Part shown: positions 30,484 through 51,287 of the stretch, in pieces | Numbering within the stretch: the stretch's first letter is position 1 | Layout of the letters: every line of letters starts with the position of its first letter | Assembly (NCBI RefSeq): GCF_006716125.1 | Contig: NZ_VFOM01000001.1 | Span: 1,364,001 to 1,428,000, forward strand | Length of the DNA stretch: 64,000 bases | Origin: Homoserinimonas aerilata | GTDB lineage: Bacteria; Actinomycetota; Actinomycetes; Actinomycetales; Microbacteriaceae | Direction of reading: 5' to 3' | Position numbers and translations under genes: made by a program | The notes under the pieces: generated by a model | What the model saw: the letters and a program-made list of their open reading frames with translations, nothing else | Databases searched by the model: none | What the model was told of the DNA's origin: nothing

Positions 30484-30568
30484 CGTCAAAAACGATCGTT
30501 TGCGGCGCGGTGAGTGAAGGCACACCAGATCGAATGCCAGAAACGTGCGCCGTAAGCGGGTTTCGGTA
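30484..30568 (-). repeat. 84-bp cassette-boundary element, copy 1 (inverted)
   Basis: On the minus strand: TACCGAAA outer arm (30568-30561), inner arm CGTTTCTGGC, variable centre, inner arm GCCGCAAACG, core AAACGATCGTTT (30490-30501). It is 85 bp and opposite in orientation to copies 4-8. It marks the left end of the cmtR-cadA module. Confidence 0.75.
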
Positions 30569-30658
30569 GGCGTATTCGGTGGGGTGTGAGCCGGATGTAC
30601 TTACACCCAGGCCCCAGAGATGTCGCCTGGGGTGAAGCCGTTCCAATAGGTCATCAAT

Positions 30659-30675
30659 CACTGTATAGTTCAGTG
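30659..30675. promoter_or_regulatory. CmtR operator candidate
   Basis: CACTG-TATAGTT-CAGTG, a perfect 5-bp inverted repeat ending 1 nt before the GTG of cmtR. The central TATAGTT can be the -10 region, so the regulator would cover its own promoter and transcripts may be nearly leaderless. Confidence 0.6.
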
Positions 30676-30676
30676 T

Positions 30677-31036
30677 GTGCTGACTATTTCCTCACGCCTC
30701 GATGTCATGAACCGGCTCGGCCGGGCCATGGCCGATCCCACGCGTTCCCGAATCCTAATGTCTCTGCTCGGTGGACCGAGCTACCCGGCTGTGCTCTCTC
30801 GTGAGCTGGAGCTGACGCGTTCGAACGTGTCGAACCATCTCACCTGCCTGCGTGACTGCGGGATTGTCGTTGCCGAGCCGGAGGGTCGCCAGACTCGTTA
30901 CGAGATCGCCGACCCGCATCTTACGGCTGCGCTCGTCGCGCTCGTGGACGTGACGCTGGCGGTCGATGAGCACGCGCCGTGCGTGGACTCTGCGTGCACG
31001 GTGGCTGGCTGCTGTGGGACGGGGGCGGACGCGTGA
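30677..31036 (+). CDS. cmtR: ArsR/SmtB-family Cd/Pb sensor, CmtR-like
   Basis: A 119-residue winged-helix metalloregulator. It keeps the exact CmtR metal ligands: Cys57 and Cys61 in LTCLRDCG, plus Cys102 in APCVDS. It should repress the cadA-cadD-lspA genes until Cd(II) or Pb(II) binds. A Cys-rich tail (AGCCG) is extra. GTG start at 30677 next to the operator; its stop overlaps cadA by 4 nt. Confidence 0.92.
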   Translation: MLTISSRLDVMNRLGRAMADPTRSRILMSLLGGPSYPAVLSRELELTRSNVSNHLTCLRDCGIVVAEPEGRQTRYEIADPHLTAALVALVDVTLAVDEHAPCVDSACTVAGCCGTGADA

Positions 31037-32958
31037 GCGCGGCGTGTGGCTGCGAGCACGAGCCTGCCCAGCCTGCCACTGCGGCGGAGGATGAGACCGA
31101 AGAGGTTGTGCGGCCCTGGTGGAGGGACCGTGGGATCATGGTGCCGGTCTTCTCCGGTGTCGCATTCCTGGCCGGTCTGATCCTTGAATGGTCCGGCCTC
31201 GAGATCCCGGCGCTGGTGTTGTTCTGGGCCGGTCTGCTCCTCGGTGCGTCGACGTTCACGCCCGGCGCGATCCGGAAACTGTTCAAGGGCAAGCTCGGTA
31301 TCGGGCTGCTGATGACGATCAGCGCGATCGGCGCGGTCATCCTCGGCTACGTGGAGGAGGCTGCGGCTCTGGCGTTCTTGTACTCGATTGCTGAGGCGCT
31401 CGAGGACAAAGCGATGGACCGTGCCCGGGGCGGGCTGAGGGCGCTGCTGAAGCTCGTGCCGGAGACAGCGACCGTGCTGCAGAACGGCGTCTCTGCGCAG
31501 GTGCCCGCGAGAGAGCTGACGGTCGGCCAGGTCATGGTGGTCCGTCCCGGCGAGCGGATCGCAACCGACGGGATCGTCCGTTCTGGCCGCTCCAGCCTGG
31601 ACACCTCGGCGATCACCGGGGAGTCGATCCCCGTCGAGGTCGAGCCCGGCGATGCGGTGTCGGCCGGTGCGATCAACAGCGCCGGCGCGCTGGAGGTCGA
31701 AACGACCGCTGCGGGCACCGACAACTCGCTCACCACGATCGTGGAGCTGGTCGAGAAGGCGCAGACCGAGAAGGGCGAGCGTGCACGTCTCGCGGACAAG
31801 ATCGCCCGCCCGCTCGTGCCCGGTGTGCTGATCCTCGCAGCGCTCGTCGCGATCATCGGGTCGCTGCTGGGAGATCCAGAGGTATGGATAACCCGCGCGC
31901 TCGTTGTGCTGGTCGCGGCGTCTCCGTGTGCACTGGCAATTTCGGTGCCGCTGACGGTCGTCGCCGCGATCGGTGCGGCAAGTAAGTTCGGCGTGATCAT
32001 CAAGTCTGGCGCTGTCTTCGAGCGCTTCGGCACAGTACGTCACGTCGCCGTCGACAAGACCGGCACCCTTACCCGCAACGAGCCCGCCGTCACCGCCGTG
32101 CTCACCACCAATGGTGTGACGGAGGCTCAGGCGCTGGCCTGGGCGGCCGCGTTGGAGCAGCACAGCACGCATCCTCTCGCCGCCGCGATCACCGCCGCCG
32201 CTCCGGGCACTCCGGCAGCTGCAGACGTGACCGAGCAGGCCGGCCATGGCATTGACGGCACCGCGGACGGATCGAAAATCACTGTCGGAAGTCCTCGTTG
32301 GCTTGACGCTGGCGAGCTCGGCAACCGGGTCGTAGCTCTCGAGGAGCAGGGCATGACCGTCGTGATCGTCCACTGTGACGGGTCACCGGTCGCCGCGATC
32401 GGCGTTCGTGACGAGTTGCGCACTGAAGTCCCCGAGGTCGTCCGGACACTCACAGGTCAGGGCGTTGGTGTGACGATGCTCACCGGCGACAACGCCCGCA
32501 CGGCTCATGCGCTGGCTGCGCAGGCCGGGATCAGTGACGTGCGCGCCGAGCTGCGCCCTGAGGACAAGGCGACCGCGATTCGAGAGCTGTCGAAGGCGGG
32601 GCCGGTCGCAATGATCGGCGACGGCATCAACGATGCCCCAGCCCTTGCTGGTGCGGACGTCGGTATCGCTATGGGCGCCACGGGCTCCGATGCGGCGATC
32701 GAATCCGCGGATGTGGCCTTCACCGGTCACGATCTCCGCCTCATCCCACGGGCGTTTGACCACGCCCGCCGGGGCCGCCGGATCATCAACCAGAACATCA
32801 TTCTGTCGTTGTTGATCATCACCGCACTGCTTCCGCTCGCACTCTTCGGGGTGCTTGGGCTCGCGGCCGTCGTCATGGTGCACGAGGTCGCAGAGGTCAT
32901 CGTGATCCTCAACGGCCTACGTGCCGCCCGCACCCGCACACCACGGGTGGCCAGCTGA
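31033..32958 (+). CDS. cadA: Heavy-metal P1B-type ATPase (Cd/Pb export, CtpG-like)
   Basis: A 641-residue P1B ATPase. The N-terminal soluble part is short (CGCEHE, no HMA domain), followed by the actuator motif TGES, the transmembrane metal motif SPC (VAASPCALAIS), phosphorylation motif DKTGTLT, HP motif STHPLA and hinge GDGINDAPALA. SPC in place of CPC, with HEVAEVIVILNGLR in the last helices, resembles CtpG, the CmtR-controlled pump of mycobacteria. Substrates are probably Cd and Pb, perhaps Co. GTG start couples it to cmtR. Confidence 0.9.
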   Translation: MSAACGCEHEPAQPATAAEDETEEVVRPWWRDRGIMVPVFSGVAFLAGLILEWSGLEIPALVLFWAGLLLGASTFTPGAIRKLFKGKLGIGLLMTISAIGAVILGYVEEAAALAFLYSIAEALEDKAMDRARGGLRALLKLVPETATVLQNGVSAQVPARELTVGQVMVVRPGERIATDGIVRSGRSSLDTSAITGESIPVEVEPGDAVSAGAINSAGALEVETTAAGTDNSLTTIVELVEKAQTEKGERARLADKIARPLVPGVLILAALVAIIGSLLGDPEVWITRALVVLVAASPCALAISVPLTVVAAIGAASKFGVIIKSGAVFERFGTVRHVAVDKTGTLTRNEPAVTAVLTTNGVTEAQALAWAAALEQHSTHPLAAAITAAAPGTPAAADVTEQAGHGIDGTADGSKITVGSPRWLDAGELGNRVVALEEQGMTVVIVHCDGSPVAAIGVRDELRTEVPEVVRTLTGQGVGVTMLTGDNARTAHALAAQAGISDVRAELRPEDKATAIRELSKAGPVAMIGDGINDAPALAGADVGIAMGATGSDAAIESADVAFTGHDLRLIPRAFDHARRGRRIINQNIILSLLIITALLPLALFGVLGLAAVVMVHEVAEVIVILNGLRAARTRTPRVAS

Positions 32959-33566
32959 TGCTCGCCACCATCGGGTCAGCGATCGGCCTGTTCGCCGCGA
33001 CCAACATCGACGACATTGTCGTCCTCACCGTGCTGTTCCTCGCCTCCAGCCGAGGAAAACCCCGGCCATGGCAGATCGTTGCAGGTCAATACCTCGGCTT
33101 CATCACCCTCGTCGTAATCAGTGTGATCGCTGCGCTCGGCCTCACCATCGTCCCGGACGAGTGGGTCGGCTTCCTCGGCCTGATCCCGCTCGGCATCGGC
33201 ATCTGGACGCTCATTCGCGGCCTGCGCCGTAACAGCGATGACGATGATGACGACTCGAAGATCACCGCGGTCGGACTATGGGGGGTCGCGGGAATCACGA
33301 TCGCCAACGGTGCGGACAACATCTCCCTGTACACGCCGATCTTCCGCACCAGCACGCCAGGCGACGTCGCCGTCATGATCGTCGTGTTCCTCATCCTCGT
33401 CGCCGTATGGTGCGCCGCCGGGCGGCTGATCGGCACCAACAAGGCCGTCACCGAGGGACTGGAGCGCGTCGAGCACTGGCTCGTACCGGCCGTGTTCATC
33501 GGTCTTGGGCTGTTCATCCTGATCGAATCCGGCGTCATCGTCCGCTTGATCGAGGTCCTCGCATGA
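32958..33566 (+). CDS. cadD: CadD-family cadmium resistance transporter
   Basis: A 202-residue membrane protein of the CadD family with five to six helices. It has the characteristic ATNIDDIVVL and NGADNISLYTPIF motifs, and an acidic cytoplasmic loop (SDDDDDDSK) that could attract divalent cations. It overlaps the cadA stop by 1 nt and the lspA start by 4 nt, so all are translated from one mRNA. Confidence 0.9.
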   Translation: MLATIGSAIGLFAATNIDDIVVLTVLFLASSRGKPRPWQIVAGQYLGFITLVVISVIAALGLTIVPDEWVGFLGLIPLGIGIWTLIRGLRRNSDDDDDDSKITAVGLWGVAGITIANGADNISLYTPIFRTSTPGDVAVMIVVFLILVAVWCAAGRLIGTNKAVTEGLERVEHWLVPAVFIGLGLFILIESGVIVRLIEVLA

Positions 33567-34096
33567 CATCGTCCGAGGCAGAATCTCAGCCGTCTGTTGC
33601 GCGACAGCTGCCGTCCGCGCGGCGTTGGCAGCTCACCGGCGGAGCGCTCCTGATCGCGCTGGTCGTCGTTCTGATCGATCAGGGGACGAAAGCGTGGGCC
33701 GAAGCGACCCTCACCGAGCGCGAGCGCATCCCGCTGATCGGTGACCTGCTTGGCCTGCAACTCGCGTACAACCCCGGTGCGGCATTCTCGTTCGGGGAGG
33801 GCTTCACCTGGGTGTTCGCGTTGCTCGCTGTCGCAGCCACCGTCACAGCGATCGTGTTCGCGTTCCGGATTCGCCGCCTGGGGTGGGCGGTCATCGTCGG
33901 CGCGCTCGGTGGAGCTGCCGCCTCACATGCAGGCGACCGCCTCTTCCGGGATCCGGGATTCGCCCAGGGGCACGTCGTTGACTTCCTCGCCTACGGGAAC
34001 TGGTTCATCGGGAACATTGCCGACATCGTGATCTTCGCTGCCGCGATCGCCGGAGGGTTCCTTATGATCCGGGGCGGTGATGAGTCCAAAGACTGA
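33563..34096 (+). CDS. lspA: Signal peptidase II (accessory copy)
   Basis: A 177-residue lipoprotein signal peptidase with four helices. Catalytic aspartates are Asp125 (GDRLF) and Asp154 (NIADI); LIDQGTK and NPGAAFS blocks are present. The usual GN of GGxxGNxxDR is SH. LspA homologues travel with metal pumps (PbrC in lead operons), where they are needed for full resistance. The ATG overlaps the cadD stop; the gene ends 40 nt before element copy 2. Confidence 0.9.
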   Translation: MTSSEAESQPSVARQLPSARRWQLTGGALLIALVVVLIDQGTKAWAEATLTERERIPLIGDLLGLQLAYNPGAAFSFGEGFTWVFALLAVAATVTAIVFAFRIRRLGWAVIVGALGGAAASHAGDRLFRDPGFAQGHVVDFLAYGNWFIGNIADIVIFAAAIAGGFLMIRGGDESKD

Positions 34097-34112
34097 CCCC
34101 GATGCTTCACGG

Positions 34113-34143
34113 CGACAGACCGCGCCGAAATCGATCGTTACCG
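34113..34143 (-). repeat. Cassette-boundary element, copy 2 (half copy)
   Basis: The minus strand reads GTAACGATCGATTTCGGC, one base shorter than the right half of copy 5 (GTAAACGATCGATTTCGGC). Only this half is clear; the other half would be inside lysR, whose TAA stop (34140-34138) is part of the core. It separates cmtR-cadA-cadD-lspA from lysR/yeiH. Confidence 0.55.
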
Positions 34144-35043
34144 GTCAGTTCGCGCGATGACGTCCAGGAAGTCCCGTATGTGAGGGGGCGGAGTCGTCCC
34201 GGCCCAGATGGCGGTGAGCGGGCGGGTGATCTGGAGATTGTTGATCCGAACTCGCACGAGTCGGCCGGCGCGGGCGTCCTCGGACACGGCGAGGGAGCTC
34301 AACGCGCCGGGGGCTATGCCGGCCATAATCGCGCTGCGAACGCCGAGCGTGGTCGTCAGCACGGCTGCGGGCTCGGCTGCGAGGGGAAAGCCCGCCTCGG
34401 TGAGGGCGTTCTCGAGCGCTTGTCGGGTGCCGCTGCCGGTCTCGCGGAGCACCAACCCAGTGCCCGCCAGTTCACGGACGGACACCCGGCGGGTCTTCGC
34501 CCATCGGTGACCGTGCTGCACAACGACTTCGATGGTGTCGTAAGCGACGGTGACCGACCGGAGGCCGGCGGGAACGACAGGGGTCTCGACGAGCCCGAGG
34601 TCTGCGGTTCCCTCGCGTATGGCCTCGACGACCGTGCTGCTGTTGGCGGCTGTGAGTTGAACGACCGGGCCGTCATTGCCGTGAGAGATGCGCCACCGGG
34701 CGATCCATTCCGGTAGGAGGTGTTCTGCGATCGTGAGGCTCGCGGCGATGCGCATCATCTTCCCGCGATCCGTGCGGAGCGAGTTGACAGCATCCGAGAA
34801 CTCGTCGGCCGCTGTCAGCAGCGTTGTTCCCCAGCCAACAACCAGCTCGCCTGTCGGAGTCAGTCGGGAGCCCCGTGCGGAACGCACCAGCAGTCGCATG
34901 CGCAGATCTTTTTCCAGGTTCCGGATGCGCAGAGATATCGCCTGCTGACTCACGCCCAACTGCGCGCTTGCCGCCGACATGCTGCTTTCCTTCGCGACGA
35001 GCGCCAAGGCTCGCAGTGCCTCCAAGTCCGGCCCGTTGCGCAT
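34138..35043 (-). CDS. LysR-family transcriptional regulator
   Basis: A 301-residue LysR regulator with an N-terminal winged HTH (LEALRALALVAKESSMSAASAQLGVSQQAISLRIRNLE) and an effector-binding domain with the usual GTRQALENAL motif. The ATG at 35043 follows GGAGG; the start at 35067 is less likely. It is divergent from yeiH and probably activates it. The stop codon lies in the repeat element. Confidence 0.88.
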   Translation of the reverse strand: MRNGPDLEALRALALVAKESSMSAASAQLGVSQQAISLRIRNLEKDLRMRLLVRSARGSRLTPTGELVVGWGTTLLTAADEFSDAVNSLRTDRGKMMRIAASLTIAEHLLPEWIARWRISHGNDGPVVQLTAANSSTVVEAIREGTADLGLVETPVVPAGLRSVTVAYDTIEVVVQHGHRWAKTRRVSVRELAGTGLVLRETGSGTRQALENALTEAGFPLAAEPAAVLTTTLGVRSAIMAGIAPGALSSLAVSEDARAGRLVRVRINNLQITRPLTAIWAGTTPPPHIRDFLDVIARTDR

Positions 35044-35063
35044 CTTCCGCCTCCCAAGCACAA

Positions 35064-35079
35064 GCATAACTTGTATGGC
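35064..35079. promoter_or_regulatory. LysR box candidate in lysR/yeiH gap
   Basis: GCATAACTTGTATGGC contains CATA-N5-TATG, a T-N11-A type dyad, in the 87-nt divergent gap. It is the only good dyad there. Confidence 0.45.
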
Positions 35080-35130
35080 GGACGGTATCTGCCTCTACTC
35101 GCACGAGCGGTCCGAGGAAATGATGGATGC

Positions 35131-36192
35131 ATGACCCATGCCCAGGACGTTGCGACCGCCCGACCGGAACACACGCTGCTTGCCCGAGTCCGCGCGCTGC
35201 TGCCCGGGCTTGTCCTCTGCCTCGCCGCGGCCGGAGCATCGTACGGGGTCAGCCTGCTGCTGCCGGGAGTCAGCCCGCTCATTATCGCGATCGTGCTTGG
35301 CGTACTCCTGGCCAACGTCGTCCGGCTGCCAGCAGCGGCCTCCGACGGCATCGACTTCTCCGCGAAAAAGCTCCTGCGCGCCGGCATCGTCTTCCTCGGA
35401 CTCCAACTGGTACTGACAGACATCCTCGAACTCGGAGCCCCGATGCTGGTCGTCATCGTGTGCATTGTCGCCGGCGGACTGTTCGGCACCGTTCTCCTGG
35501 GGAAGCTGCTACGGGTTCCATCCGGGCTCTCGCTGCTAATCGCCTGCGGATTCTCCATCTGCGGCGCGGCAGCCGTGGCGGGCGCGGCAGGGGTCACCGA
35601 CCCGGACGACGAGGCCGAGGAAGACACCATCACCGCGGTCGCCCTCGTGGTGATCTTCGGAACGCTGATGATTCCCCTCGTCCCACTGATCACGGACCTG
35701 CTTGGCCTGGGCTCCGAGACGGCCGGGATGTGGGCAGGGGGTTCCATCCATGAAATCGCGCAAGTCGTCGCCGCTGGAGGCATCATCGGTGGCGGAGCGC
35801 TCACGGTCGCGGTCATCGTCAAACTCGCCCGAGTGCTGCTGCTCGCCCCTGTCGTGGCCATCCTTAGCATCCGGCAGCGCCGTCTCAGCCGTACGGCAGG
35901 CGAACCCGGTCAACAGATGTCGCATTCGAAGCTGCCGCCCGTCGTCCCGCTGTTCATCATCGGGTTCATCGCCATGGTGCTCCTGCGTTCCTTTATCCCT
36001 CTGCCGGACTTCGTGCTGACGACCGGCGGGCTGCTGCAGACAGGGTTGCTGGCTGCAGCGATGTTCGGACTCGGCTGCGGCGTCAAGATTCGGAACCTCA
36101 TCAAGGTGGGCCTCAAGCCCTTCGCCCTCGCCGCGCTCTCCACCCTCCTCGTCGCCACCATCGCCTATTGCGGAGTCACCCTCGCCGGCTGA
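35131..36192 (+). CDS. yeiH: YeiH-family putative sulfate/anion exporter
   Basis: A 353-residue membrane protein of the YeiH (UPF0324) family with about ten helices. Family motifs are visible: LLRAGIVFLGLQL, CGFSICGAAAVAGAAG and GSIHEIAQVVAAG. Members are proposed to export sulfate or sulfonates. It is controlled by the divergent LysR. Its stop is 18 nt before the half copy of the boundary element. The start may be one of several nearby ATGs. Confidence 0.87.
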   Translation: MTHAQDVATARPEHTLLARVRALLPGLVLCLAAAGASYGVSLLLPGVSPLIIAIVLGVLLANVVRLPAAASDGIDFSAKKLLRAGIVFLGLQLVLTDILELGAPMLVVIVCIVAGGLFGTVLLGKLLRVPSGLSLLIACGFSICGAAAVAGAAGVTDPDDEAEEDTITAVALVVIFGTLMIPLVPLITDLLGLGSETAGMWAGGSIHEIAQVVAAGGIIGGGALTVAVIVKLARVLLLAPVVAILSIRQRRLSRTAGEPGQQMSHSKLPPVVPLFIIGFIAMVLLRSFIPLPDFVLTTGGLLQTGLLAAAMFGLGCGVKIRNLIKVGLKPFALAALSTLLVATIAYCGVTLAG

Positions 36193-36210
36193 ACATGGCC
36201 GGCACCAGGG

Positions 36211-36244
36211 CGTCACTACGCGCCGCAAACGATCGTTTTCGGCA
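36211..36244 (+). repeat. Cassette-boundary element, copy 3 (right half)
   Basis: CGCCGC followed by AAACGATCGTTTTCGGCA; the core is at 36227-36238. No convincing left arm upstream, where yeiH coding ends at 36192; the gene probably replaced it. It separates the lysR/yeiH and merR/sulP modules. Confidence 0.65.
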
Positions 36245-36294
36245 GACCGATCGACTATGGGCCGAGGCCTCCAACGCGGTGCATCCGTCTCTCT

Positions 36295-36699
36295 TTAGAG
36301 CTGACCGAGCAGTTGCACGAACTCGTCGGCCATGGCGAGCTGCTCCGTGAGTTTCTGGCGACGCTGGTCGGCGCCGTCGCGGATGTCATCGATCCGGGCG
36401 CGCAACGCCACGTCGCTCGGGTCGACGGTGAGGGCGTCGACGACGTCGAGGAGTTCGCGCATCTCGTCGAGGGTGTATCCCAACGGTTTCATTCTGCGGA
36501 TGATGAGGATGCGATCGACATCTTTCTCGGTGTAAAGCCGGAACCCGCCCTCCGTGCGCGCGGACGGCTGCACGAGCCCCACGTCGTCCCAGTGTCGAAG
36601 CGAGCGGAACGAGAGCGCCGTGCGCTCGGCCACTTCGCCGATCCGCATCGTCTCGACGGTCCTGTGTTCGTCTTCCACTGATTTCCCCACAACACTCAC
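36295..36699 (-). CDS. MerR-family transcriptional regulator
   Basis: A 134-residue MerR-type regulator: MRIGEVAERTALSFRSLRHWDDVGLVQPS winged helix, then the coiled-coil dimerisation helix (about residues 95-130). No cysteine metal site is seen, so it is not a classic metal sensor. It is divergent from the SulP gene. The start at 36699 (GTG) would lie within the presumed operator; ATG 36648 (MRIGEVAERT) is an alternative. Confidence 0.85.
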   Translation of the reverse strand: MSVVGKSVEDEHRTVETMRIGEVAERTALSFRSLRHWDDVGLVQPSARTEGGFRLYTEKDVDRILIIRRMKPLGYTLDEMRELLDVVDALTVDPSDVALRARIDDIRDGADQRRQKLTEQLAMADEFVQLLGQL

Positions 36700-36712
36700 G
36701 TTACGTTAGAGT
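36694..36712. promoter_or_regulatory. MerR operator candidate upstream of sulP
   Basis: ACTCACGTTACGTTAGAGT: ACTC and GAGT outer arms around ACGT-T-ACGT, a 19-bp dyad of the size MerR proteins use between -35 and -10. It is 128 nt before the sulP start and overlaps the annotated merR start. Confidence 0.5.
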
Positions 36713-36840
36713 CTAGATCGGCGCGGCTCTCGCGCCCGCTCCCCTTATCTTTCCGTGTCGGCCTGACCGACGCCTGCGCACCGCTGCGCTCCCATTCGTT
36801 TCCCGCGCTCTCACGAGAGAGCCCAGCACCCGGAGGGCAC

Positions 36841-38358: not shown

Positions 38359-38374
38359 GTCACGATTCACGCAA

Positions 38375-38575: not shown

Positions 38576-38631
38576 CTCCACAACTACGGAGTATGCCCTT
38601 CGTCAGATGAGACCCACCGTAGGCTCAGAGG

Positions 38632-43393: not shown

Positions 43394-43419
43394 AAGGGTC
43401 TCCGTCGCTTTCTTCTGGG

Positions 43420-43539: not shown

Positions 43540-43553
43540 GGTGCCAGGTCCTT

Positions 43554-43919: not shown

Positions 43920-43925
43920 CGCCGA

Positions 43926-44111: not shown

Positions 44112-44132
44112 ACGCTGATCTCCTTGCTCGGC

Positions 44133-44182
44133 GATACCCCGGGGAGTATCAGTTCATGTGAATACGATACCCCAGGGGGTAT
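44133..44182. promoter_or_regulatory. Paired CsoR/CstR operators of the sulfur operon and regulator gene
   Basis: GATACCCCGGGGAGTATC (44133-44150) and GATACCCCAGGGGGTAT (44166-44182) lie in the 102-nt divergent gap between the zinc-ribbon/trxA operon and the CstR-like gene, 33 bp apart (about three helical turns). One site probably serves each promoter. Confidence 0.82.
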
Positions 44183-44213
44183 AGTGGTTGTCAACTCGAC
44201 GGAAGGACCACCC

Positions 44214-44507
44214 ATGACCGACACCCTCGTCACCGGCGACCCGCTCGTCCACGACCCCGAAGCCAAGCGCAAAGTCGTCAACCGCCTCAAGCGAGCTCAG
44301 GGCCAGCTGGCGGCGGTCATTACGGCCGTCGAGGACGACGCGCACTGCCGCGACGTCGTGCAGCAGCTCTCCGCCGTCTCGAAGGCCCTCGACCGGGCCG
44401 GATTCCTCGTGATCTCGACCGCGCTGCGGGAATGCCTCACCGATCCGGACGCCGACGACGTCACCTCCCCCGCCGAGTTGGAGAAGCTCTTCCTCTCCCT
44501 GGCCTGA
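44214..44507 (+). CDS. cstR: CsoR-family regulator, CstR-like persulfide sensor
   Basis: A 97-residue all-helical CsoR/RcnR-type repressor. Cys45 and Cys74 correspond to the two Cys ligands of CsoR (Cys36, Cys65), but the position of the copper-binding His61 is Ala70. Without that His, copper sensing is unlikely, and the Cys pair matches CstR, which forms a di- or trisulfide bridge. Gene content of the divergent operon agrees. The start at 44214 follows GGAAGG. Confidence 0.85.
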   Translation: MTDTLVTGDPLVHDPEAKRKVVNRLKRAQGQLAAVITAVEDDAHCRDVVQQLSAVSKALDRAGFLVISTALRECLTDPDADDVTSPAELEKLFLSLA

Positions 44508-44675
44508 ACCGGTCAGGCCCGCTCCTCGGGGCCCTCGCCTGGTGACCTGGGAGGAGTTCGACGATTCCCGTGTCGAACACCGTTAGTCTTCCCAGGGCGC
44601 TGTTCGCATGGGACCGGCGCTGAACAATGATGTGTTGAAGCATTCACAGTGATGCCAGATGAGGAGCGGTGCTTC

Positions 44676-45563
44676 GTGCTTTTGACGAGTCTTCCCAGCC
44701 CCCCACCGTCGTGGGCACAGTTCACCCTCGGGCCGCTCACAATCCACACCTACGCGCTGTGCATCATCGCCGGGATCATCGCCGCCGTGATCATCACCCA
44801 ACGACGCCTGTCGGCACGAGGCGCGGAGGACGGCGTGGTTGTCGACATCGTCATCTGGGCTGTCCCGATCGGCATCATCGGAGCCCGGTTCTATCACGTG
44901 TTCACCCACGTCGGGGACTACTTCTATCCGGGCGCGAACCTCGGGAACATCTTCGCCATCTGGGACGGCGGCAACGCCCTCTACGGGTCCCTCCTGGGCG
45001 GCGCTGTCGGTGCGTACATCGGCTGCCGACGAACCGGTATCCGGCTGTGGTCCTTCGCCGACGCTCTCGCGCCCGCGATGCTCATCGCGCAGTCCATGGG
45101 TCGGATCGGCAACTACTTCAACCACGAACTCTTCGGGCTGCCCACCACGCTGCCGTGGGGGCTCGAGATCCTGCCGACGGACACCATGTTCCCGGACGGC
45201 CTCCCGGCCGGAACGCTGTTCCACCCGCTGTTCCTGTACGAGATCATCTGGAACCTGATCGGCGTGGCGATCATCCTCCTCCTCGAGCGCAGATACCGGT
45301 TCCGGTGGGGACGAACCTTCGCCCTCTATATGATCTGGTACGGCCTCGGACGCAGCTGGCTCGAGGCCATCAGGATCGACCCCACCAGCGACGCCCTGTT
45401 CGGCATCCCCGCGAACGTCTGGGCATCCGTCGTCGTCGTCGCCCTCGGCATCGCGCTATTCGTCGTCCAGGGGCGACGACACCCCGAACCCGAACCCTCC
45501 GTGTACCAAGAAGGACGCGCGCCAGCGGTGGAACATCAGCCCAGCAGCGCAGACGAGAGCTGA
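44676..45563 (+). CDS. lgt: Prolipoprotein diacylglyceryl transferase (accessory copy)
   Basis: A 295-residue Lgt with about seven helices and the signature GRIGNYFNHELFG. It attaches diacylglycerol to the lipobox cysteine of prolipoproteins. Not part of the core sulfur pathway, but the cargo encodes lipoproteins. GTG 44676 follows AGGAG; ATGs at 44649 and 44652 would add nine or eight residues. Ends 87 nt before element copy 7. Confidence 0.92.
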   Translation: MLLTSLPSPPPSWAQFTLGPLTIHTYALCIIAGIIAAVIITQRRLSARGAEDGVVVDIVIWAVPIGIIGARFYHVFTHVGDYFYPGANLGNIFAIWDGGNALYGSLLGGAVGAYIGCRRTGIRLWSFADALAPAMLIAQSMGRIGNYFNHELFGLPTTLPWGLEILPTDTMFPDGLPAGTLFHPLFLYEIIWNLIGVAIILLLERRYRFRWGRTFALYMIWYGLGRSWLEAIRIDPTSDALFGIPANVWASVVVVALGIALFVVQGRRHPEPEPSVYQEGRAPAVEHQPSSADES

Positions 45564-45649
45564 ACGCCACCCACACCTCCAGCTGTCAGCTAGTTCTGTC
45601 TAAGCGATCACGGACACAACGCCTCTTGACGTGGTGCGCCGAAAATCCC

Positions 45650-45733
45650 TGCCGAGAGGGGTTTCCGAAGATCGTTTGTGGCGCCTCATAAGGAGCCACC
45701 GGGCCAGTGACGCCAAAACGATCGTTTCTGGTG
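45650..45733 (+). repeat. 84-bp cassette-boundary element, copy 7
   Basis: Outer arms TGCCGAGAG (45650) and TTTCTGGTG (ends 45733), mostly kept as G-T wobble pairs; inner arms CGTTTGTGGC and GCCAAAACG; core AAACGATCGTTT (45716-45727). Same 84-bp length as copies 4 and 8. A preceding extra arm CGCCGAAAAT is at 45638. It separates the sulfur/lgt module and the two-component module. Confidence 0.82.
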
Positions 45734-45832
45734 TGACGGACGACGGCATGCGGAAGATCATCCGGGTTACCCGACCCGGTTTGCGCCGGGCGTACGCTGA
45801 TGGTCTCGATCGCGGAAGACGGGACGACGACC

Positions 45833-46513
45833 ATGGGCGACTCGGCACAGGGGCCACGCGGTTCGCTGCTCTATGTTGAAGATGATGCGGAGATCGCTGC
45901 GCTGACCGTCGAAGTGCTGGAAGAGGTGTACGACGTCGAGCATGCCGCGGACGGCGAGACCGCGCTCCGGCTCGCGCTGAGCAGGCGATACGACGCCATG
46001 GTGGTCGATCGACGCCTCCCCGGCATGGACGGCGTCGATTTCATCTGTGCCGTGCGTACCGCGCACATCACGACGCCGGTCCTGATGCTGACCGCGCTCG
46101 GCACCGTGGACGATCGTGTCACCGGTCTCGACGGCGGAGCGAACGACTACCTGGTGAAGCCGTTCGATTACGACGAGCTGCTGGCGCGCCTTCGGGCGCT
46201 GCGACGCGCGTTCAGGGCTGATGGGGTACGTCGACGCCTCGGCGAGTGGGTGTTCACGCCGGACGCCCAGGCCGCGTACGATCCATCTGGAATCCGAGTG
46301 GCGCTGACGGCGACGGAGAGCGCGCTCCTGGAGCTGTTGAGCACCAGCCCCGAGCACGTGTTCAGTCGGGACGAGATCCTCCGCGCCGTGTTCCATGAAG
46401 GAGATACGACGAGTTCGGTGGACACGTACGTGCACTATGTGCGGCGCAAGACGTCCCCCGACATGATCGAGACCGTCCGCGCACGCGGCTACCGCGCGGG
46501 AACACCGTCATGA
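45833..46513 (+). CDS. OmpR/PhoB-type response regulator
   Basis: A 226-residue response regulator: receiver domain (acceptor Asp59 in VVDRRLPGMDG, Lys in YLVKPFD) and C-terminal winged helix ending RARGYRAG. Paired with the histidine kinase (4-nt overlap). It probably controls the convergent flavin electron-transfer genes. Start uncertain: ATG at 45800 would add 11 residues. Confidence 0.9.
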   Translation: MGDSAQGPRGSLLYVEDDAEIAALTVEVLEEVYDVEHAADGETALRLALSRRYDAMVVDRRLPGMDGVDFICAVRTAHITTPVLMLTALGTVDDRVTGLDGGANDYLVKPFDYDELLARLRALRRAFRADGVRRRLGEWVFTPDAQAAYDPSGIRVALTATESALLELLSTSPEHVFSRDEILRAVFHEGDTTSSVDTYVHYVRRKTSPDMIETVRARGYRAGTPS

Positions 46514-47487
46514 GCGACGCCGATAATCGACGCGTGCGTCGCGCAGCGCTATCCATCGGACTCTGGGTCGGAGTCTCGTCGGGTGTGATCGTCGCGATCG
46601 GCATCGGCGTGCTGATCGCGGTGGTGCTCTCAACGTCGCGCCGCGAAGGCGAGGAGCACGGCGGCGGCTGGTTCGGCGGTCCCGCCGGAACGCGGGACGA
46701 CTTCATCGTCGACATCGACGTGATCGTTCCGGCCGTGATCATCATCGGAGTGATCGGCGTGGTGCTGCTCGGGGTTGTCGCCGCGGTCGCCGCTCGACGA
46801 TCGGTCCGCCCGCTCGGGGAGGCGCTGCGTCGGCAGCGAAACTTCGTGGCCGACGCGAGCCACGAACTGCGTACGCCGCTGACGGCGCTGACGAGCCGTA
46901 TCCAGGTGTTGCAACGCCGTCATGACCGAGGCGAGGACCTCGGAGCGGGTCTCACCAACCTCCGGCGCGATGCGGACATGATGGCCGACGTGCTCAACGA
47001 CCTGCTCATCGCCGCGGAAGGAGAATCGTTCGCCGACGGGAACGCGGACGTCGCGACAGCGGCGGCGACAGCGGTCGCAGCGATGACGACGAGCGAGAAG
47101 CGCTCCGAGGTCTCGCTCGCGATCACCGTGGATCAGGAGGTGAAGGCGCAGCTGCCGGAAGTCACGCTCGTCCGCATCCTGGTCGCGCTGCTCGACAACG
47201 CCGTGCAGCACTCCCCGGCGCGAGGTACCGTCTCGATCCGCATCGCGCGGGACGCCCGCAACGTGACGGTGCGCGTCATCGACGAGGGCTCCGGGATCGA
47301 AGGCATCTCGCCCGAGCAGGTCTTCGAGCGCTTCGCGCGTCCGCGCGAGAGTGGGCGCCCTCGCAGCTTCGGTCTCGGACTCTCACTCGTGCGAGATGTC
47401 GCTCGCCGTGCCGGAGGGTCCATCGAGGTCGAACGGTCGACAGCATCCGGCACGACTTTCCTGCTCACACTGCCGGCTCATCCCTGA
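46510..47487 (+). CDS. Sensor histidine kinase
   Basis: A 325-residue membrane kinase: helix 1 (about residues 14-40), a short extracytoplasmic loop with acidic and Gly residues (REGEEHGGGWFGG), helix 2 (about 72-95), H-box ADASHELRTPL (His118), N-box DNAVQHSP, and G boxes DEGSGI and GLGLSLV. The short sensor loop suggests a membrane-internal or partner-sensed signal. The end overlaps apbE by 10 nt on the other strand. Confidence 0.9.
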   Translation: MSDADNRRVRRAALSIGLWVGVSSGVIVAIGIGVLIAVVLSTSRREGEEHGGGWFGGPAGTRDDFIVDIDVIVPAVIIIGVIGVVLLGVVAAVAARRSVRPLGEALRRQRNFVADASHELRTPLTALTSRIQVLQRRHDRGEDLGAGLTNLRRDADMMADVLNDLLIAAEGESFADGNADVATAAATAVAAMTTSEKRSEVSLAITVDQEVKAQLPEVTLVRILVALLDNAVQHSPARGTVSIRIARDARNVTVRVIDEGSGIEGISPEQVFERFARPRESGRPRSFGLGLSLVRDVARRAGGSIEVERSTASGTTFLLTLPAHP

Positions 47488-48317
47488 ACGAGTGCGTCTC
47501 CTCCGATCGGATGCGAACCGACCGTCGTCGTCTGCACGTCCACCATCGTCGTGCCGAGCCAGCGGGTCACGCGACGATCAGCATCGACGACGATGCCGGT
47601 GCGCGACCCCGCAGCCGCGATCCACGAGCGGTTCGCCGGGCCGGCCACCACGGCAGCGGTCGCCCAGACGTCCGCTTGCGTGAGACCGTCGGTCACGATC
47701 GTGGCCGACGCGGTGCCTGTCGCGGGCCTACCGGTGCGCGGATCGAGGATATGATGCCCGCGCTCCGCCGTCCCTGAGGTCGCCACCGCACCGTTCACCA
47801 CGTCGACCACCGCGATCAACTGACCGCGGTCGTGCGGGTCGGCGATTCCCACCGGCCATCGCCAGTCGGCTCCCTCGGCTGTGAACAGCTGCAGGTCTCC
47901 TCCGGCGTTGATGCCGACCGCGGTCGCGGCAGCCAGCAGCGGCTCGAGGTGCCGACGGCCCGCAGCTTCCACCGCCCAGCCCTTGACGTATCCCGTCGGG
48001 TCGAACCTTCCCCGCCACCGGGCGGAGACCAGGCCGCCAGTCTCCTCTTCGGCGCGTTCGCAGGCATCCGCGACCAGCGCCACCCTGCTGTCAGCGTCGG
48101 CGATGGAGAGTTCACCGCGACGGATGCGGCTGATGTCGGAATCAGTGCGATATGTCGAGAAGACCCGGTCGATGTCACGCAGTTCGTCGAAGCATGCTCG
48201 CACTGCCCGGTCGGCGCCCTCGTCGGTCATTTCCCCCGGAGCAATCAGATGGATGCTCATCGGAATGCCCATGATCTCCTCGACCCAGACCCGCGTCACC
48301 TCATTCGCGGTACGCAT
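47478..48317 (-). CDS. apbE: FAD:protein FMN transferase
   Basis: A 279-residue ApbE that covalently links FMN to threonine in target proteins. The family motifs DPTGYVKGWAVE, INAGGDLQLF and the HHILDPRTGRP-like region are present. It overlaps by 3 nt (ATGA-type) the FMN-binding protein gene, its evident substrate. No lipobox is visible, so it may act in the cytoplasm or use an exported form. Confidence 0.92.
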   Translation of the reverse strand: MRTANEVTRVWVEEIMGIPMSIHLIAPGEMTDEGADRAVRACFDELRDIDRVFSTYRTDSDISRIRRGELSIADADSRVALVADACERAEEETGGLVSARWRGRFDPTGYVKGWAVEAAGRRHLEPLLAAATAVGINAGGDLQLFTAEGADWRWPVGIADPHDRGQLIAVVDVVNGAVATSGTAERGHHILDPRTGRPATGTASATIVTDGLTQADVWATAAVVAGPANRSWIAAAGSRTGIVVDADRRVTRWLGTTMVDVQTTTVGSHPIGGDALVQG

Positions 48318-48796
48318 CAGCTCTGCGCCTGGTCGATCGCGCTCTGCAGCGACGAGAGGTAGCCACCGCTCGTGTATGTGGCACCGGACACCATCTGGAT
48401 CTTCGAGCTCTGCGCCTGGATCGTCTCCGAGACGAGCCTCGGGATCGCGGTGCCGTTGATCTGCCGGTCCCGACCGTTGCTGTTCGGGTAATCGACCGCC
48501 TGTGCGTCCGTGATCTGTCCACCGGAGACGGTTATCTGCACCTGCACCGGCCCGTAGCGGGTCTGCGATGATGCGCCGGTGTAGGTTCCGTCGGCGAGGC
48601 CGGTGCCAGACATGGTTCCCGAGTTCGTCGATGTGGTTCCCGAGCCGCTCGCGCCGGTCTCGGCGGTCGTCAATGAACTGCCCGCTGTCGCCGCACTGGC
48701 GTCGGTCGGGGTGACCGCCTCCAGAGACGTTCGGTAGCTGAACAGCAGCACGAGTCCGCTGACGGTCGCGAGCAGCGTGTAGAGGATCTTCTTCAT
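48317..48796 (-). CDS. FMN-binding domain protein (flavinylation target)
   Basis: A 159-residue protein with an N-terminal membrane anchor (about residues 4-22), a Ser/Thr/Gly-rich linker, and a C-terminal FMN-binding domain (about 70-159) with flavinylation motif SGATYTS (residues 137-143). It would carry electrons outside the membrane. Genes for ApbE and a ferric-reductase-like flavoprotein flank it, which is a typical extracellular flavin electron-transfer set. Confidence 0.9.
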   Translation of the reverse strand: MKKILYTLLATVSGLVLLFSYRTSLEAVTPTDASAATAGSSLTTAETGASGSGTTSTNSGTMSGTGLADGTYTGASSQTRYGPVQVQITVSGGQITDAQAVDYPNSNGRDRQINGTAIPRLVSETIQAQSSKIQMVSGATYTSGGYLSSLQSAIDQAQS

Positions 48797-48810
48797 GGCC
48801 GTCTCCCTGC

Positions 48811-50232
48811 TCAGATCGTGAACGATTCGGAATGGATGCGATGGGCGGGGAACCCGGCGCCAACCAGGTCGCGCCTGAGGTCTTTCATCCAGGCCTCACC
48901 GCCACAGATGAACACGTCGTGGTCCTTCGGCTCCGGCACGAGATGGCGGAGGAGATCTGCGCCCGACCACGCCTCGTGCGTGGCAGGGATCCAGCTCGAC
49001 GCGCCGGAAGATCGCGGGCCGATGAACGGCAGGTAGCTCAGGCCACGGGTACTGATGAGGTGAGCGATGGCCTCCTGCCGAAGAGCGTCCTCGGCCGCGG
49101 ACTCCCGGGTGATAAGCATCGCTTCTCCCGGTCCGTAGCCTTCCGTCTCGAGCAGCGAGACGAGCGGTGCGACCCCGGCGCCTGCGCCGATCATAAGCAG
49201 CTTCGTCCCGGTCCTGCGCTCACCGGTCATCTCCCCGTATGGTCCTTCCACGATGACCCTGGTGCCAGGGAGCAGCGCGGTGAGGCGTCGCGTGCCGTCG
49301 CCCAGCACACGGGCAGTCAACGTCAGCTCGCTTCCCGGCGCAGCGGAGAGCGAGAACGGGTGCGCGCGAGTCCAGCCTGGTCCATCGAGGAACCGCCAGA
49401 CGAAGAACTGACCAGCCCTGGCACCGAGCGTCGCGAGGTCGCGACCGGTGACCCGGATGGTGACGCCCCGAGCACCGTCCGCCTCGACCCCCGCCACCCG
49501 CAGGGCCCGACGAGTGGACCGCAGCAGCGGCATCCCGATGCGGAAGAGCAGTACCGATCCTGCGGAGAGCGCCCAGATCGACCACCAGTAGACGGTCGCG
49601 ATCGGTGAGGACAGGAAGTCGGCGCCCGTCCACAGCTGGTGCGGCAGCGCGAGCCCGACGCCCAGGTACGCGTACAGGTGCAGGAGGTGCCAGGACTCGT
49701 ACCGCAGGTGCCGACGAGCACGCCGGATCGAGGTGACGACCACGAGCAGGATCAGCAGAGTGCCGGCAGTCGCCAGGAGCATGCCGGGGTATTCCCAGAT
49801 GAAGCTCCACAGCTGGACGAGCGGGTTGATGCCGGCAGCCATCGCGTAGCCCACCGCGAGCAGTGCGATGTGCGCGCCCATCAACCAGAACGACCAGAAT
49901 CCGACGAAGCGATGCAGCCGCGTGATCCCGTCGCGACCGAATCCGCGCTCGAACAGCGGGACGCGCGCCATCAGCAGCACCTGATAGAGCAGCAGATTCG
50001 CCGCGACCAACCCGGTGAGGCGTCCGAGCGTCGTGACGGTCTCGGCGTTGACTCCCAGGACTGCGGTCACTCCACCACAGGCGATCCACAAAGCGACGAC
50101 GAACAGGCTGGTCGCCCAGATCACCGTGATCGCCGCTGCACGCCAGACCCGCGCGCGGCCATGGGCTGCCCGCCGTGGCTCAGGGGAAGCGGCGGGGACG
50201 GAAGCACGCGGTCTCGTCGTCAGAGTGGTCAT
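48811..50232 (-). CDS. Ferric reductase-like transmembrane flavoprotein
   Basis: A 473-residue protein: six helices with haem-type His residues (LHRFVGFWSFWLMGAH, WHLLHLYAYLG), then an FAD-binding (HPFSLSAAP) and an NAD-binding domain (MIGAGAGVAPLVSLLE, FICGGEAWM). It takes electrons from NAD(P)H across the membrane and would pass them to the FMN-binding protein 14 nt downstream. It is first in the apbE operon. Confidence 0.9.
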   Translation of the reverse strand: MTTLTTRPRASVPAASPEPRRAAHGRARVWRAAAITVIWATSLFVVALWIACGGVTAVLGVNAETVTTLGRLTGLVAANLLLYQVLLMARVPLFERGFGRDGITRLHRFVGFWSFWLMGAHIALLAVGYAMAAGINPLVQLWSFIWEYPGMLLATAGTLLILLVVVTSIRRARRHLRYESWHLLHLYAYLGVGLALPHQLWTGADFLSSPIATVYWWSIWALSAGSVLLFRIGMPLLRSTRRALRVAGVEADGARGVTIRVTGRDLATLGARAGQFFVWRFLDGPGWTRAHPFSLSAAPGSELTLTARVLGDGTRRLTALLPGTRVIVEGPYGEMTGERRTGTKLLMIGAGAGVAPLVSLLETEGYGPGEAMLITRESAAEDALRQEAIAHLISTRGLSYLPFIGPRSSGASSWIPATHEAWSGADLLRHLVPEPKDHDVFICGGEAWMKDLRRDLVGAGFPAHRIHSESFTI

Positions 50233-50305
50233 AGGGGAATCGTGCTGCGCCGACTCTGAGACAGGTCTAAGGAACGGCTCCCGATAGGCAACTCATATCT
50301 GTCTC

Positions 50306-51022
50306 TCAGGCAACGCCACTCGTCCCGAGCAGCGTACCGATCGCGAACGTGACCACCAGCGCGATCGCCCCACCGAGCACCACCCTGATCGTGGGCCTCA
50401 GCGCGGGGTTCCCGCCGATCCTCGCGCTCAGGAATCCGGTCAGCGCGAGCGCCAGCAGCACCACCGCGAAAGCGACCGGCACCCGGATCTCGGGAGGCGG
50501 GAGCAGTATCGCCAAGAGCGGAAGCAGCGCTCCGAGTGCGAAGGCAAGTGCGGAGGCCCCCGCCGCCGCCCACGGACTGACCACCTGATTCTCCGTGATG
50601 CCTAGTTCCGCTTCGAGGTGCGCGGTCAGCGGGTCGTGCGCGGTGAGCTCCTCCGCAACGAGGCGTGCGGTCGCCGGGCTAAGACCTTTCGCCTGATAGA
50701 TGCCCGCCAGCTCCTCGAGCTCGGTCGCAGGATTATCGGCCAGCTCTCCTCGTTCCTTCTCGATCAGAGCCCGTTGGCTGTCTCGCTGGCTGCTCACCGA
50801 CACGTACTCCCCGAGCGCCATCGAGATCGCACCGCCGACGAGACCGGCGACACCCGCGGCGAGCAGCGTCGCGGAATCGGTCGTCGCCCCCGCGACACCG
50901 ACGACGAGCGACGCGACCGACACGATGCCGTCGTTCGCGCCGAGCACTCCGGCTCTGAGCCAGTTGAGCCGCCCAGCGAGATCGCCGCGGTGGGGTTCAC
51001 CCGGATGCGTCGCCAACATCAT
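50306..51022 (-). CDS. VIT1/CCC1-family transporter
   Basis: A 238-residue VIT-family membrane protein with five helices; motif GANDGIVSVASLVVGVAGA near residue 28 and the EYVSVSSQRD segment are diagnostic. Related proteins move Fe(II)/Mn(II). Cytoplasmic loop residues about 80-140 are acidic. It starts at ATG ATG (51022) and lies 73 nt upstream of the ferric-reductase-like gene, so iron handling and electron transfer may be linked. Confidence 0.87.
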   Translation of the reverse strand: MMLATHPGEPHRGDLAGRLNWLRAGVLGANDGIVSVASLVVGVAGATTDSATLLAAGVAGLVGGAISMALGEYVSVSSQRDSQRALIEKERGELADNPATELEELAGIYQAKGLSPATARLVAEELTAHDPLTAHLEAELGITENQVVSPWAAAGASALAFALGALLPLLAILLPPPEIRVPVAFAVVLLALALTGFLSARIGGNPALRPTIRVVLGGAIALVVTFAIGTLLGTSGVA

Positions 51023-51203
51023 CGCCCCGTTCTTTCTCCCGGCGCGGCTATGGAAGGCACATCCCGACGTAGGTCGAGCTCTGCGTGCGCGGAATGCCAC
51101 TTCGTGAGAGGTCGAGTCATCGGACAAGAATACGCCCGCCACAAACGCGCCCTCCGCAGCTCGACCGCTAGCAAGTCCGGTCGCGGCACCAACCGAAGGC
51201 CCA

Positions 51204-51287
51204 TGCCAGAACGGGGTTCCGGCTCCCGTTAGCGGCGACCGCCCCGGCAACCAAGTGATACCGCGCCGGAAACGATCGTTTTCGGCG
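51204..51287 (+). repeat. 84-bp cassette-boundary element, copy 8
   Basis: Outer arms TGCCAGAAC (51204) and TTTTCGGCG; inner arms CGTTAGCGGCG and CGCCGGAAACG pairing at 9 of 11; core AAACGATCGTTT (51270-51281). It is the last copy, right of the VIT gene, near the right edge of the cargo. Confidence 0.85.

Follow-up and report, generated by a model that had tools for sequence, protein, structure and literature searches.

Arrays of gene cassettes or modules are known for tyrosine recombinases, namely the integron integrases and the Xer recombinases of dif modules. In integrons the tyrosine integrase IntI acts on attC sites, which carry R and L boxes, form imperfect hairpins and recombine as single strands. 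Module exchange at res sites is reportedly the subject of work on "The shuffling function of resolvases", and we know of no multi-cassette array for Tn3-type res sites comparable to the one described below. The res sites of the Tn3 family and of plasmids are composed of a palindromic crossover subsite and accessory subsites, with a central AT in Tn3 and gamma-delta (PMC12217951). In Acinetobacter, sites of a resolution system (dif or pdif) bound gene modules that are shuffled between plasmids, for which models via a cointegrate are given, and Xer recombination at dif-type sites is described as unique to this genus (PMC13141974).

In this work we focused on a window of 64,000 nucleotides, the whole stretch of DNA analysed, which probably carries an integron-like cassette array assembled by a serine resolvase through recombination of the res type. 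This system resembles Tn3-type res in its small serine resolvase, the site upstream of the resolvase gene, the crossover and accessory subsites and the central AT, but here the cassettes of multi-cassette arrays end in sites of a second class, many of them orphans, and most of the arrays examined lack an adjoining resolvase. With integrons and CALINs it shares one entry-type site, one end site per cassette, a mostly uniform orientation, cassettes common to several species in differing order, and the existence of clusters lacking the enzyme. It differs from integrons by a serine resolvase in place of a tyrosine integrase, by a symmetric core with a one-sided arm, and by recurrent units of 0.77-7.5 kb, several of which contain multiple genes and occupy both strands. 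Gene modules bounded by resolution-system sites are also found in the dif/pdif modules, which involve XerC/XerD in Acinetobacter, whereas the present system, seen mainly in Microbacteriaceae, has a serine resolvase from plasmids and a site whose arm is one-sided; the array core is presumably unlike dif. No description of arrays of this kind was found in the open-licence PMC literature, preprints being outside this scope. If our reading is true, a serine resolvase with attI-like and attC-like classes of sites would have arrived independently at the architecture of these arrays, and one would have to ask how a normally fusion-undoing enzyme serves gene collection. The sites also provide a handle for finding and delimiting mobile units in Microbacteriaceae.

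Sites and cassettes of the array

An earlier note on this DNA had placed six full copies of a repeated element in the window, and all of them were borne out (Table 1), although the conserved unit measures about 98 bp and not about 84 bp as first given. Together with two core-only copies they span 30.4-51.3 kb of the window. The 22-bp palindrome GCCGNAAACGATCGTTTTCGGC closes every full copy, and a search with the palindrome CCGNAAACGATCGTTTNCGG, allowing up to 3 mismatches, gave 8 matches in the window versus 0.04 expected from shuffles, corresponding to the six full-copy cores and to 34124-34145 and 36222-36243. These last two had been correctly located as "half copies", but they are cores without an arm. 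A further site at 30378-30511, missed by the earlier note, is longer than the six copies and different from them, with the same core.

A sequence-only profile (R1), trained on the six copies of the window, retrieved these copies from the complete 2.84 Mb genome with E values of 1e-19 to 1e-23, and the remaining matches better than E 0.02 were all fragments of the same array. The copies had been described as confined to this stretch, and R1 indeed found none outside the array in the whole genome; an even spread, which would have contradicted a role at cargo borders, was not seen in this genome. A later A-site model indicated one more A-like site, a distant one (C1:493736-493862, E 1e-10). No Rfam match was found in the window.

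Table 1. Features of the array and its flanks (positions in the window)
Feature	Position	Strand	Remarks
Conjugation-type genes left of array	27390..30206	+	NCBIfam SCO6881- and SCO6880-family; first below curated cut-off
Type A site	30378..30511	+	Model R3, 76.6 bits; res-like; no resolvase gene adjoining here
Type B site 1	30483..30581	-	R1 79.5 bits, R2 72.1 bits; inverted; end of cad cassette
Core 1	30485..30506		Belongs both to the type A site on its left and to the inverted type B site on its right
Cassette 1 (inverted)	30495..34135		ArsR-type regulator, P-type ATPase, CadD, LspA; Pfam
Core 2, armless ("half copy")	34124..34145		Block end versus two other genomes
Cassette 2	34134..36233		LysR regulator and YeiH-type protein (PF03601); Pfam
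Core 3, armless ("half copy")	36222..36243		Left end of 15-kb block common with G337
Cassette 3	36232..38564		MerR regulator and SulP transporter; Pfam
Type B site 2	38478..38575	+	Core 38553-38574; profile match
Cassette 4	38563..39336		Orphan 1 (193 aa)
Type B site 3	39250..39347	+	Core 39325-39346; profile match
Cassette 5	39335..40107		Orphan 2 (181 aa)
Type B site 4	40021..40119	+	Core 40096-40117; block start versus G079 and M. aerolatum
Cassette 6	40106..45722		Rhodanese, TauE, metallo-beta-lactamase-fold/rhodanese, Lgt; 5616 bp in five arrays
Type B site 5	45637..45734	+	Core 45711-45732; profile match
Cassette 7	45721..51276		Response regulator, histidine kinase, ApbE, ferric-reductase-like, VIT1
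Type B site 6	51191..51288	+	Core 51265-51286; profile match
VirB4-like conjugation ATPase right of array	52679..54163	+	NCBIfam; all matches below curated cut-offs

The gene contents of the intervals are those named in the earlier note, with which Pfam agrees; orphan 1 and orphan 2 had no Pfam or NCBIfam match at E up to 0.001.

The sites fall into two classes with a common core, the res-like class A and class B, which ends gene cassettes and comprises the six copies of the window. Model R3 was trained on 8 sites, the class A site of the window among them, and this site was compared with resolvase-adjacent sites. In 22 arrays, 57 of 61 B sites lie on the strand of A and 4 are reversed relative to it, while 60 of the 61 are on its cargo side. 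The arm flanks the core on one side only in all cases, and its length is nearly constant (74-76 bp in 14 aligned B copies). The half-site GCCGAAAAC, with up to 2 mismatches, occurs 30 times in 14 B arms versus 5.3 by shuffle (maximum 11, 200 shuffles), and 24 times in 8 A arms versus 4.6 (maximum 11). As in res, a palindromic crossover subsite with a 2-bp centre (AT in GCCGNAAACGATCGTTTTCGGC) is thus accompanied by arms enriched, in both A and B, in copies of the same half-site. Since class A adjoins a resolvase gene or operon elsewhere, the shared core looks, by sequence comparison, like res subsite I, the crossover site of a serine resolvase.

The nearly constant arm length and the repeated half-sites fit double-stranded, protein-binding DNA, and the elements appear unlike attC sites. 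They had been described as two-stem elements, which holds for the core dyad (93% of cells paired, both-side changes in 4 of 7 pairs in 14 B copies) and poorly for the inner dyad (74% of cells paired, both-side changes in 1 of 8 pairs). A folded single-strand, attC-like reading was set aside because the predicted folds vary among copies and the inner stem is weak. Against this decision, both dyads jointly beat all or nearly all of 500 shuffles.

Exchange at the cores between related arrays

Exchange at the cores rests on the comparison of relatives. Positions 36222-51286 of the window are 99.9% identical to two contigs of Microbacterium sp. K24 (G337), with both ends inside cores, and the core of site 6 is the right end of the blocks common with K24, A20, Bi121 and M. 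aerolatum. Compared with G079, the window switches at the 40096 core, where G079 carries an A arm and a resolvase gene. In Microbacterium sp. Bi121 the SulP cassette with its B site is joined straight to the sulfur-Lgt cassette, and both orphan cassettes (4 and 5) are missing between them, a loss between two copies of the kind anticipated by the earlier note.

Among 45 sequences, 108 of 217 interior block ends had a core centre no more than 25 bp away in each of the two partners, against a mean of 0.006 and a maximum of 1 in 1000 shifted-core controls, and 109 were away from cores in one or both partners. The prediction that copies mark the borders of shared blocks is borne out by this comparison and by that with K24; the opposite outcome, that cassettes of relatives do not break at the elements, is contradicted by roughly one block end in two. 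The ends away from cores include that of the cad block, which in six comparisons stops on its right side at position 34084 of the window, 40 bp before core 2. The resolution of the crossover is limited to the conserved part of the core, as the cores are alike in both parents.

Eleven core-to-core intervals, one of merely 148 bp, recur in at least two arrays, and six of them have differing neighbours. The cad unit (4200 bp) is 99.8-100% identical in six genomes, to which the 3640-bp cassette 1 of the window is about 92% identical; the 2099-bp unit of cassette 2 recurs at 98% in two other genomes in the opposite orientation; and the SulP (2332 bp) and sulfur-Lgt (5616 bp) units are each found in five arrays. 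Certain units are 99.8-100% identical across genomes representing different species. A cassette array, a uniform orientation and exchange at sites are therefore all present, and "integron-like" is meant here for the way the array works, membership not being implied. Besides the overlapping loci of the window itself, the conjugation genes of the window, looked for with the aim of finding an empty insertion site, had one distant match among the fetched loci (L351, 38%).

A plasmid serine resolvase at class A sites

A recombinase co-occurring with the repeats, which the earlier note had proposed to look for, was found in a small serine resolvase of actinobacterial plasmids (about 186-210 aa, PF00239). 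At 17 of the 22 closest resolvase loci of a family-genome scan, five of the 17 being training sites of the A model, an A site lies up to 3 kb upstream with its arm facing the gene; the absence of an A match at the other 5 is soft, because large scans score few candidates per genome. Of 15 plasmids examined (14 hand-picked from at least 40 records, plus pL3i23), 14 also have an A site at a distance of up to about 320 bp from the resolvase operon, three of these matches being arm-only, two weak (22-25 bits) and three training sites. A site upstream of the resolvase, as in res, is thus found for class A in both sets, which have one plasmid in common. Class B, checked unsystematically, was not seen upstream of a resolvase gene so far.

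Co-occurrence was analysed in 398 genomes, a B match at E up to 1e-8 defining a B genome. Class A was present in 10 of 13 B genomes and in 24 of 385 others (P 1e-9), with A training sites coming from the genome of the window and from five among the 34, and B training sites from six of the 13; as the two classes have a common core, a B core may account for weak A matches in B genomes, such as that of G002 (24 bits). The lack of an A match in 3 of the 13 is again soft, few candidates being scored per genome. Five weaker B genomes lie outside the main count, and with them the figures become 12 of 18 versus 22 of 380. A close resolvase was found in 5 of 13 B genomes versus 16 of 385 others (P 2e-4). 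Among the matches listed by a single pattern scan across about 85,000 species genomes were 80 loci, and 70 of these, mostly from Microbacterium, fit the B profile with E values no higher than 1e-6.

The resolvase lies within 3.5 kb of A in 6 of 22 arrays only, one copy being fragmented and one matched from residue 37 onward, and the other 16 arrays, the window's included, have none beside A; the idea that every array is autonomous was rejected on this basis. Homologues at E up to 1e-15 were found in only 6 of 25 searched array genomes, just two of them close (86-91%). The genome of the window has no PF00239 match, and within the reach of this search the earlier note was correct in seeing no integrase in the vicinity; pNx66 carries a full B site, yet no PF00239 match. 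A BLAST comparison of ORFs up to 3.5 kb from A, aimed at a gene that arrays lacking the resolvase might share to the left of A, showed only the resolvase and its reverse-frame ORFs to recur in more than two arrays. When 1160 ORFs from 27 genomes or records were clustered and part of the clusters profiled, the resolvase was the sole recognised recombinase in the 25 commonest clusters near arrays (9 of 27 genomes or records), and no IntI-type integrase was recognised among the widespread ones.

Proposed mechanism and alternatives

The cassette units, the block ends at cores, the position of A beside the resolvase and the shared half-sites support, at the sequence level, the following scheme. The 22-bp palindrome with its central AT would be the crossover subsite, and the 75-110 bp left of the core would be accessory DNA with extra GCCGAAA half-sites. 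Class A, upstream of the resolvase gene or operon, would take the role of the integron attI, and class B, at the cassette end, that of attC. Recombination via the core (A x B or B x B) would add, remove, invert or exchange the DNA right of the core, so that units composed of cargo and B would line up behind A. We infer that the resolvase acts on B sites, which it would bind and cut, presumably at the central AT. Cassettes may enter via plasmid fusion followed by resolution. According to PMC12217951 resolvases strongly prefer resolution over fusion, and capture would thus need a rarer reaction or another route. Arrays without a resolvase, such as that of the window, may have been built in a resolvase-bearing host and now be dormant or served in trans. 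There is an even chance, in our estimate, that resolvase, A and B-ended cassettes form a serine-recombinase integron moving metal, sulfur and redox units among Microbacteriaceae, the enzyme-less chromosomal or ICE arrays being stores served in trans by plasmids.

Another recombinase (host XerC/D, or a tyrosine integrase of an ICE or integron) could exchange the cores, the link to the resolvase being incidental. Most arrays examined, including that of the window, indeed have no resolvase beside A, and the search for tyrosine recombinases covered ORF clusters near the arrays; we nevertheless consider this unlikely in view of the association of A with the resolvase gene or operon (17/22 loci, 14/15 plasmids) and of the resolvase being alone among the recombinases recognised in the partly profiled 25 commonest clusters (9/27). 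Still less probable is a shuffling of blocks by homologous recombination between repeats, for which a dedicated enzyme is unneeded: where A joins SulP or sulfur the parents have just about 17-20 bp in common, one in two block ends is at the core, and the B copies, repeated and alike as they are, have diverged (identity to a reference copy 62-78% along 50 nt and 67-75% along 95 nt), although this process could account for some B-to-B losses.

The earlier note had considered both a cassette array with a new site family and a MITE, and the comparison supports the former. A MITE-like or REP-like transposable repeat lying in intergenic gaps by chance would agree with short, non-coding, repeated and partly palindromic elements, but it is very improbable, since full copies are restricted to one 21-kb stretch of the genome, the arm is one-sided throughout and the adjoining DNA is exchanged at the core; in place of the dispersed insertions expected of a MITE, copies are found in one array with neighbours swapped at the cores. 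Terminators or other RNA elements retained between operons, which the intergenic position and the dyads exceeding shuffles might suggest, are equally improbable given a window devoid of Rfam matches, a poorly conserved inner stem, the lack of copies in the rest of the genome and block ends that coincide with the core.

The solved chain nearest to the resolvase is the DNA invertase 4m6f, followed by gamma-delta resolvase, Tn552 bin3, Tn3 resolvase and Sin. A Fic gene adjoins the resolvase in 9 of the 15 examined plasmids.

The 98-bp element and its distribution

A 98-bp element occurs in six full copies between 30.4 and 51.3 kb of the window, where its last 22 bp are also found alone in two further copies. 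The repeat family described in the earlier note, six copies and two halves, is thereby recovered, its length being 98 bp rather than about 84 bp. Each full copy is one-sided, with a 75-bp arm followed by the palindromic core GCCGNAAACGATCGTTTTCGGC; the arm runs in the plus direction in five of the six, the copy at 30483-30581 being inverted. A profile built from these copies recovered all six in a whole-genome search (E 1e-19 to 1e-23), and no match better than E 0.02 was found in the same genome outside the window array.

The profile was then searched against 199 genomes (own included), of which 20 matched at E up to 0.01. Strong matches beyond the own genome were obtained in G079, G109, G060 and G002, with one to three copies each, and one full copy is carried by each of the plasmids pNx66 (Microbacterium) and pL3i23 (Herbiconiux). 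A wider profile, built from 14 copies, matched 18 of 398 family genomes at E up to 1e-4, including 13 at E up to 1e-8, six of which had supplied training copies. A pattern scan of named species genomes yielded 104 stretches, 80 of which were examined as loci. The wider profile reached E 1e-6 in 70 of them, all labelled Actinomycetota, mostly Microbacterium, with the single exception of an Acidobacteria MAG; the ten falling short comprised nine from other or unlabelled lineages and one Streptomyces. In a deeper search of 18 of the scan genomes (E up to 0.001), 1 to 25 matches were found per genome, often clustered, both strands of one core possibly being counted.

Two site classes and a serine resolvase

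Homology between G079 and the window sets in within the core of element 40021-40119; to its left, G079 carries another kind of arm, directly adjoining the gene of a 186-aa serine resolvase (PF00239, E 6e-35). This arm recurs beside related resolvases and, by alignment and a dedicated model, defines class A, the cassette-end elements being class B. The two classes are distinct: B sites score 60-80 bits with the wider B profile for the 14 training copies, about 38-66 bits for other full matches, and at most 25 bits with the A model for every copy, whereas A sites score 30-95 bits with the A model and at most 28 with the wider B profile.

Among the 22 closest resolvase loci of the family scan (E up to 1e-45), 17 have an A match no more than 3 kb upstream whose arm faces the gene, five of these 17 having trained the model; at the other five no A match was found. 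The distance is within 30 bp in seven loci and 0.96-2.2 kb in ten. In pL3i23 the gap holds two annotated genes, one for Fic and a small one, and the other wide gaps presumably do likewise. In 14 of 15 annotated resolvase plasmids, selected from the matches listed, the A model matches no further than about 320 bp from the resolvase operon, three of these matches being arm-only, two weak (22-25 bits) and three used in training; pL3i23 (G214 of the family scan) is counted in both sets. The protein is an enzyme of the resolvase/invertase kind, its closest matches among solved chains being DNA invertase 4m6f, gamma-delta, Tn552 bin3, Tn3 resolvase and Sin. In three resolvase plasmids, 12-41 kb separate the match to the A arm from that to the core end, which looks like the result of an insertion between them, res-site-hunting transposons being one possibility.

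The core half-site is enriched in the arms of both classes (14 B arms: 30 observed against 5.3 expected; 8 A arms: 24 against 4.6), so that the same protein may bind A and B. In pL3i23, the near half of the A core bears GCTCA, the box type of the plasmid itself, and the far half CCGAAA, that of the cassettes, an asymmetry that would be predicted from an exchange between two sites differing in specificity. Cores with arms on both sides also occur and suggest that the palindromic core permits joining in either orientation.

Coordinates of individual sites and open reading frames
Feature	Sequence	Coordinates	Remark
Class A site	window	30378-30511	without resolvase gene
Core with A arm and inverted B arm	window	30378-30581	
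Orphan ORF	window	38632-39213	
Orphan ORF	window	39437-39982	
Second A-like site	own genome, G000:C1 (L024)	493736-493862 (-)	A model, E 1.2e-10; far from window
Asymmetric A core	pL3i23 (L066)	22206-22343	
Core with two opposed B arms	L195	7753-7924	
Core with two opposed B arms	L375	12883-13053	
Core with two opposed B arms	L215	7054-7225	
Core with B arm and weak A match	L058	10219-10420	
Split A site	NZ_CP053550	6781-6871 / 48308-48343	arm / core end
Split A site	NZ_CP012699	43212-43293 / 31065-31119	arm / core end
Split A site	NZ_CP043643	11196-11276 / 25024-25064	arm / core end

Cassette borders and exchange among relatives

Homology blocks (at least 400 bp, at least 90% identity) were collected from 45 sequences (36 array-genome loci and 9 further) totalling 1.29 Mb and 134 cores. 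Of 217 interior block ends, 108 lay no more than 25 bp from the centre of a core in both partners and 109 in at least one; 1000 random core shifts gave means of 0.006 (maximum 1) and 2.3 (maximum 15), respectively. The 108 ends involve 59 different cores and are not independent, because cassettes are shared. The 109 ends not at cores in both partners include cases of extra DNA (for instance the 1.6 kb that G079 has at window 41007), of divergence, and some unexplained ones. One of these is in the window, where the cad block stops on its right at 34084, 40 bp before core 2 is reached. In 22 arrays with both classes, 57 of 61 B sites share the strand of their nearest A site, and 60 of 61 lie on the cargo side of it. 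Across the 398 family genomes, A is present in 10 of 13 with B versus 24 of 385 without, and a close resolvase in 5 of 13 versus 16 of 385.

Window 36222-50392 and 50410-51286 are 99.9% identical to two contigs of Microbacterium sp. K24. The left end of this block falls in core 3, where K24 carries an A site instead of the window's LysR-YeiH and cad cassettes, and the right end of the block in the last core. Microbacterium sp. A20 shares 15 kb with the window at 99.9%, and M. aerolatum window 40097-51286, both core to core. The Bi121 array reads A site, cad (opposite to the window), SulP, sulfur-Lgt and VIT; its SulP cassette, 100% identical to that of the window, is joined directly to sulfur-Lgt, the two orphan cassettes being absent. 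Eleven core-to-core intervals, one of only 148 bp, recur in at least two arrays, six with different neighbours. Two other genomes contain LysR-YeiH, reversed, as a unit of 2099 bp from core to core, and a unit of 7517 bp stands behind VIT in one genome and behind SulP in a second. A 4200-bp cad unit, of which the shorter window unit is a 92% relative, is 99.8-100% identical among six genomes. In three of them (C5A9, SZ1 and Se63.02b) the similarity extends, at 98-99.9%, into adjacent DNA. Such near-identity across species shows recent cassette traffic, from which ongoing traffic in this strain does not follow.

The chromosome of Microbacterium sp. CBA3102 (L355-L358, L385) contains pNx66-like plasmid DNA at 99%, with one end of the stretches at the plasmid's B-site core in two places, so plasmid DNA has entered the chromosome at such sites.

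Origin of the arrays and their cargo

Shuffling at res sites is reportedly already on record. On the best reading of the sequence comparisons, a plasmid serine resolvase has lent its res-type sites to gene-cassette arrays, in which they now serve as joints. The sites agree with the res architecture described in PMC12217951, namely a central AT, a palindromic core and a position upstream of the gene; against the reading stands that resolvases, according to the same paper, normally disfavour fusion. The arrays work like integrons and dif modules without necessarily belonging to either, and module exchange in dif systems is on record (PMC13141974). In a literature search of open-licence papers, we recognised no account of arrays with two serine-resolvase site classes. 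Should capture of cassettes by the resolvase at A x B be demonstrated, the system would deserve its own name.

Also against the resolvase reading, 16 of 22 arrays have no such gene next to A, and 19 of 25 array genomes searched contain no homologue at all; a PF00239 search of the window's whole genome gave zero matches. Enzyme-less arrays could be relics or be served by plasmids. Around the second A-like site of the own genome, neither a full B match nor a PF00239 gene was found with the six-copy profile and PF00239 searches.

A search for an empty site to set against the window array gave none. Its left flank carries SCO6881- and SCO6880-family conjugation-type genes and its right flank a VirB4-like gene (NCBIfam, SCO6880 alone above the curated cut-off); such genes on both flanks support the earlier note's view of the array as ICE cargo, and Pfam agrees with the interval contents it named. 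Neither orphan ORF matches a Pfam or NCBIfam family (E up to 0.001), although both cassettes recur at 99-100% identity in two Microbacterium genomes.
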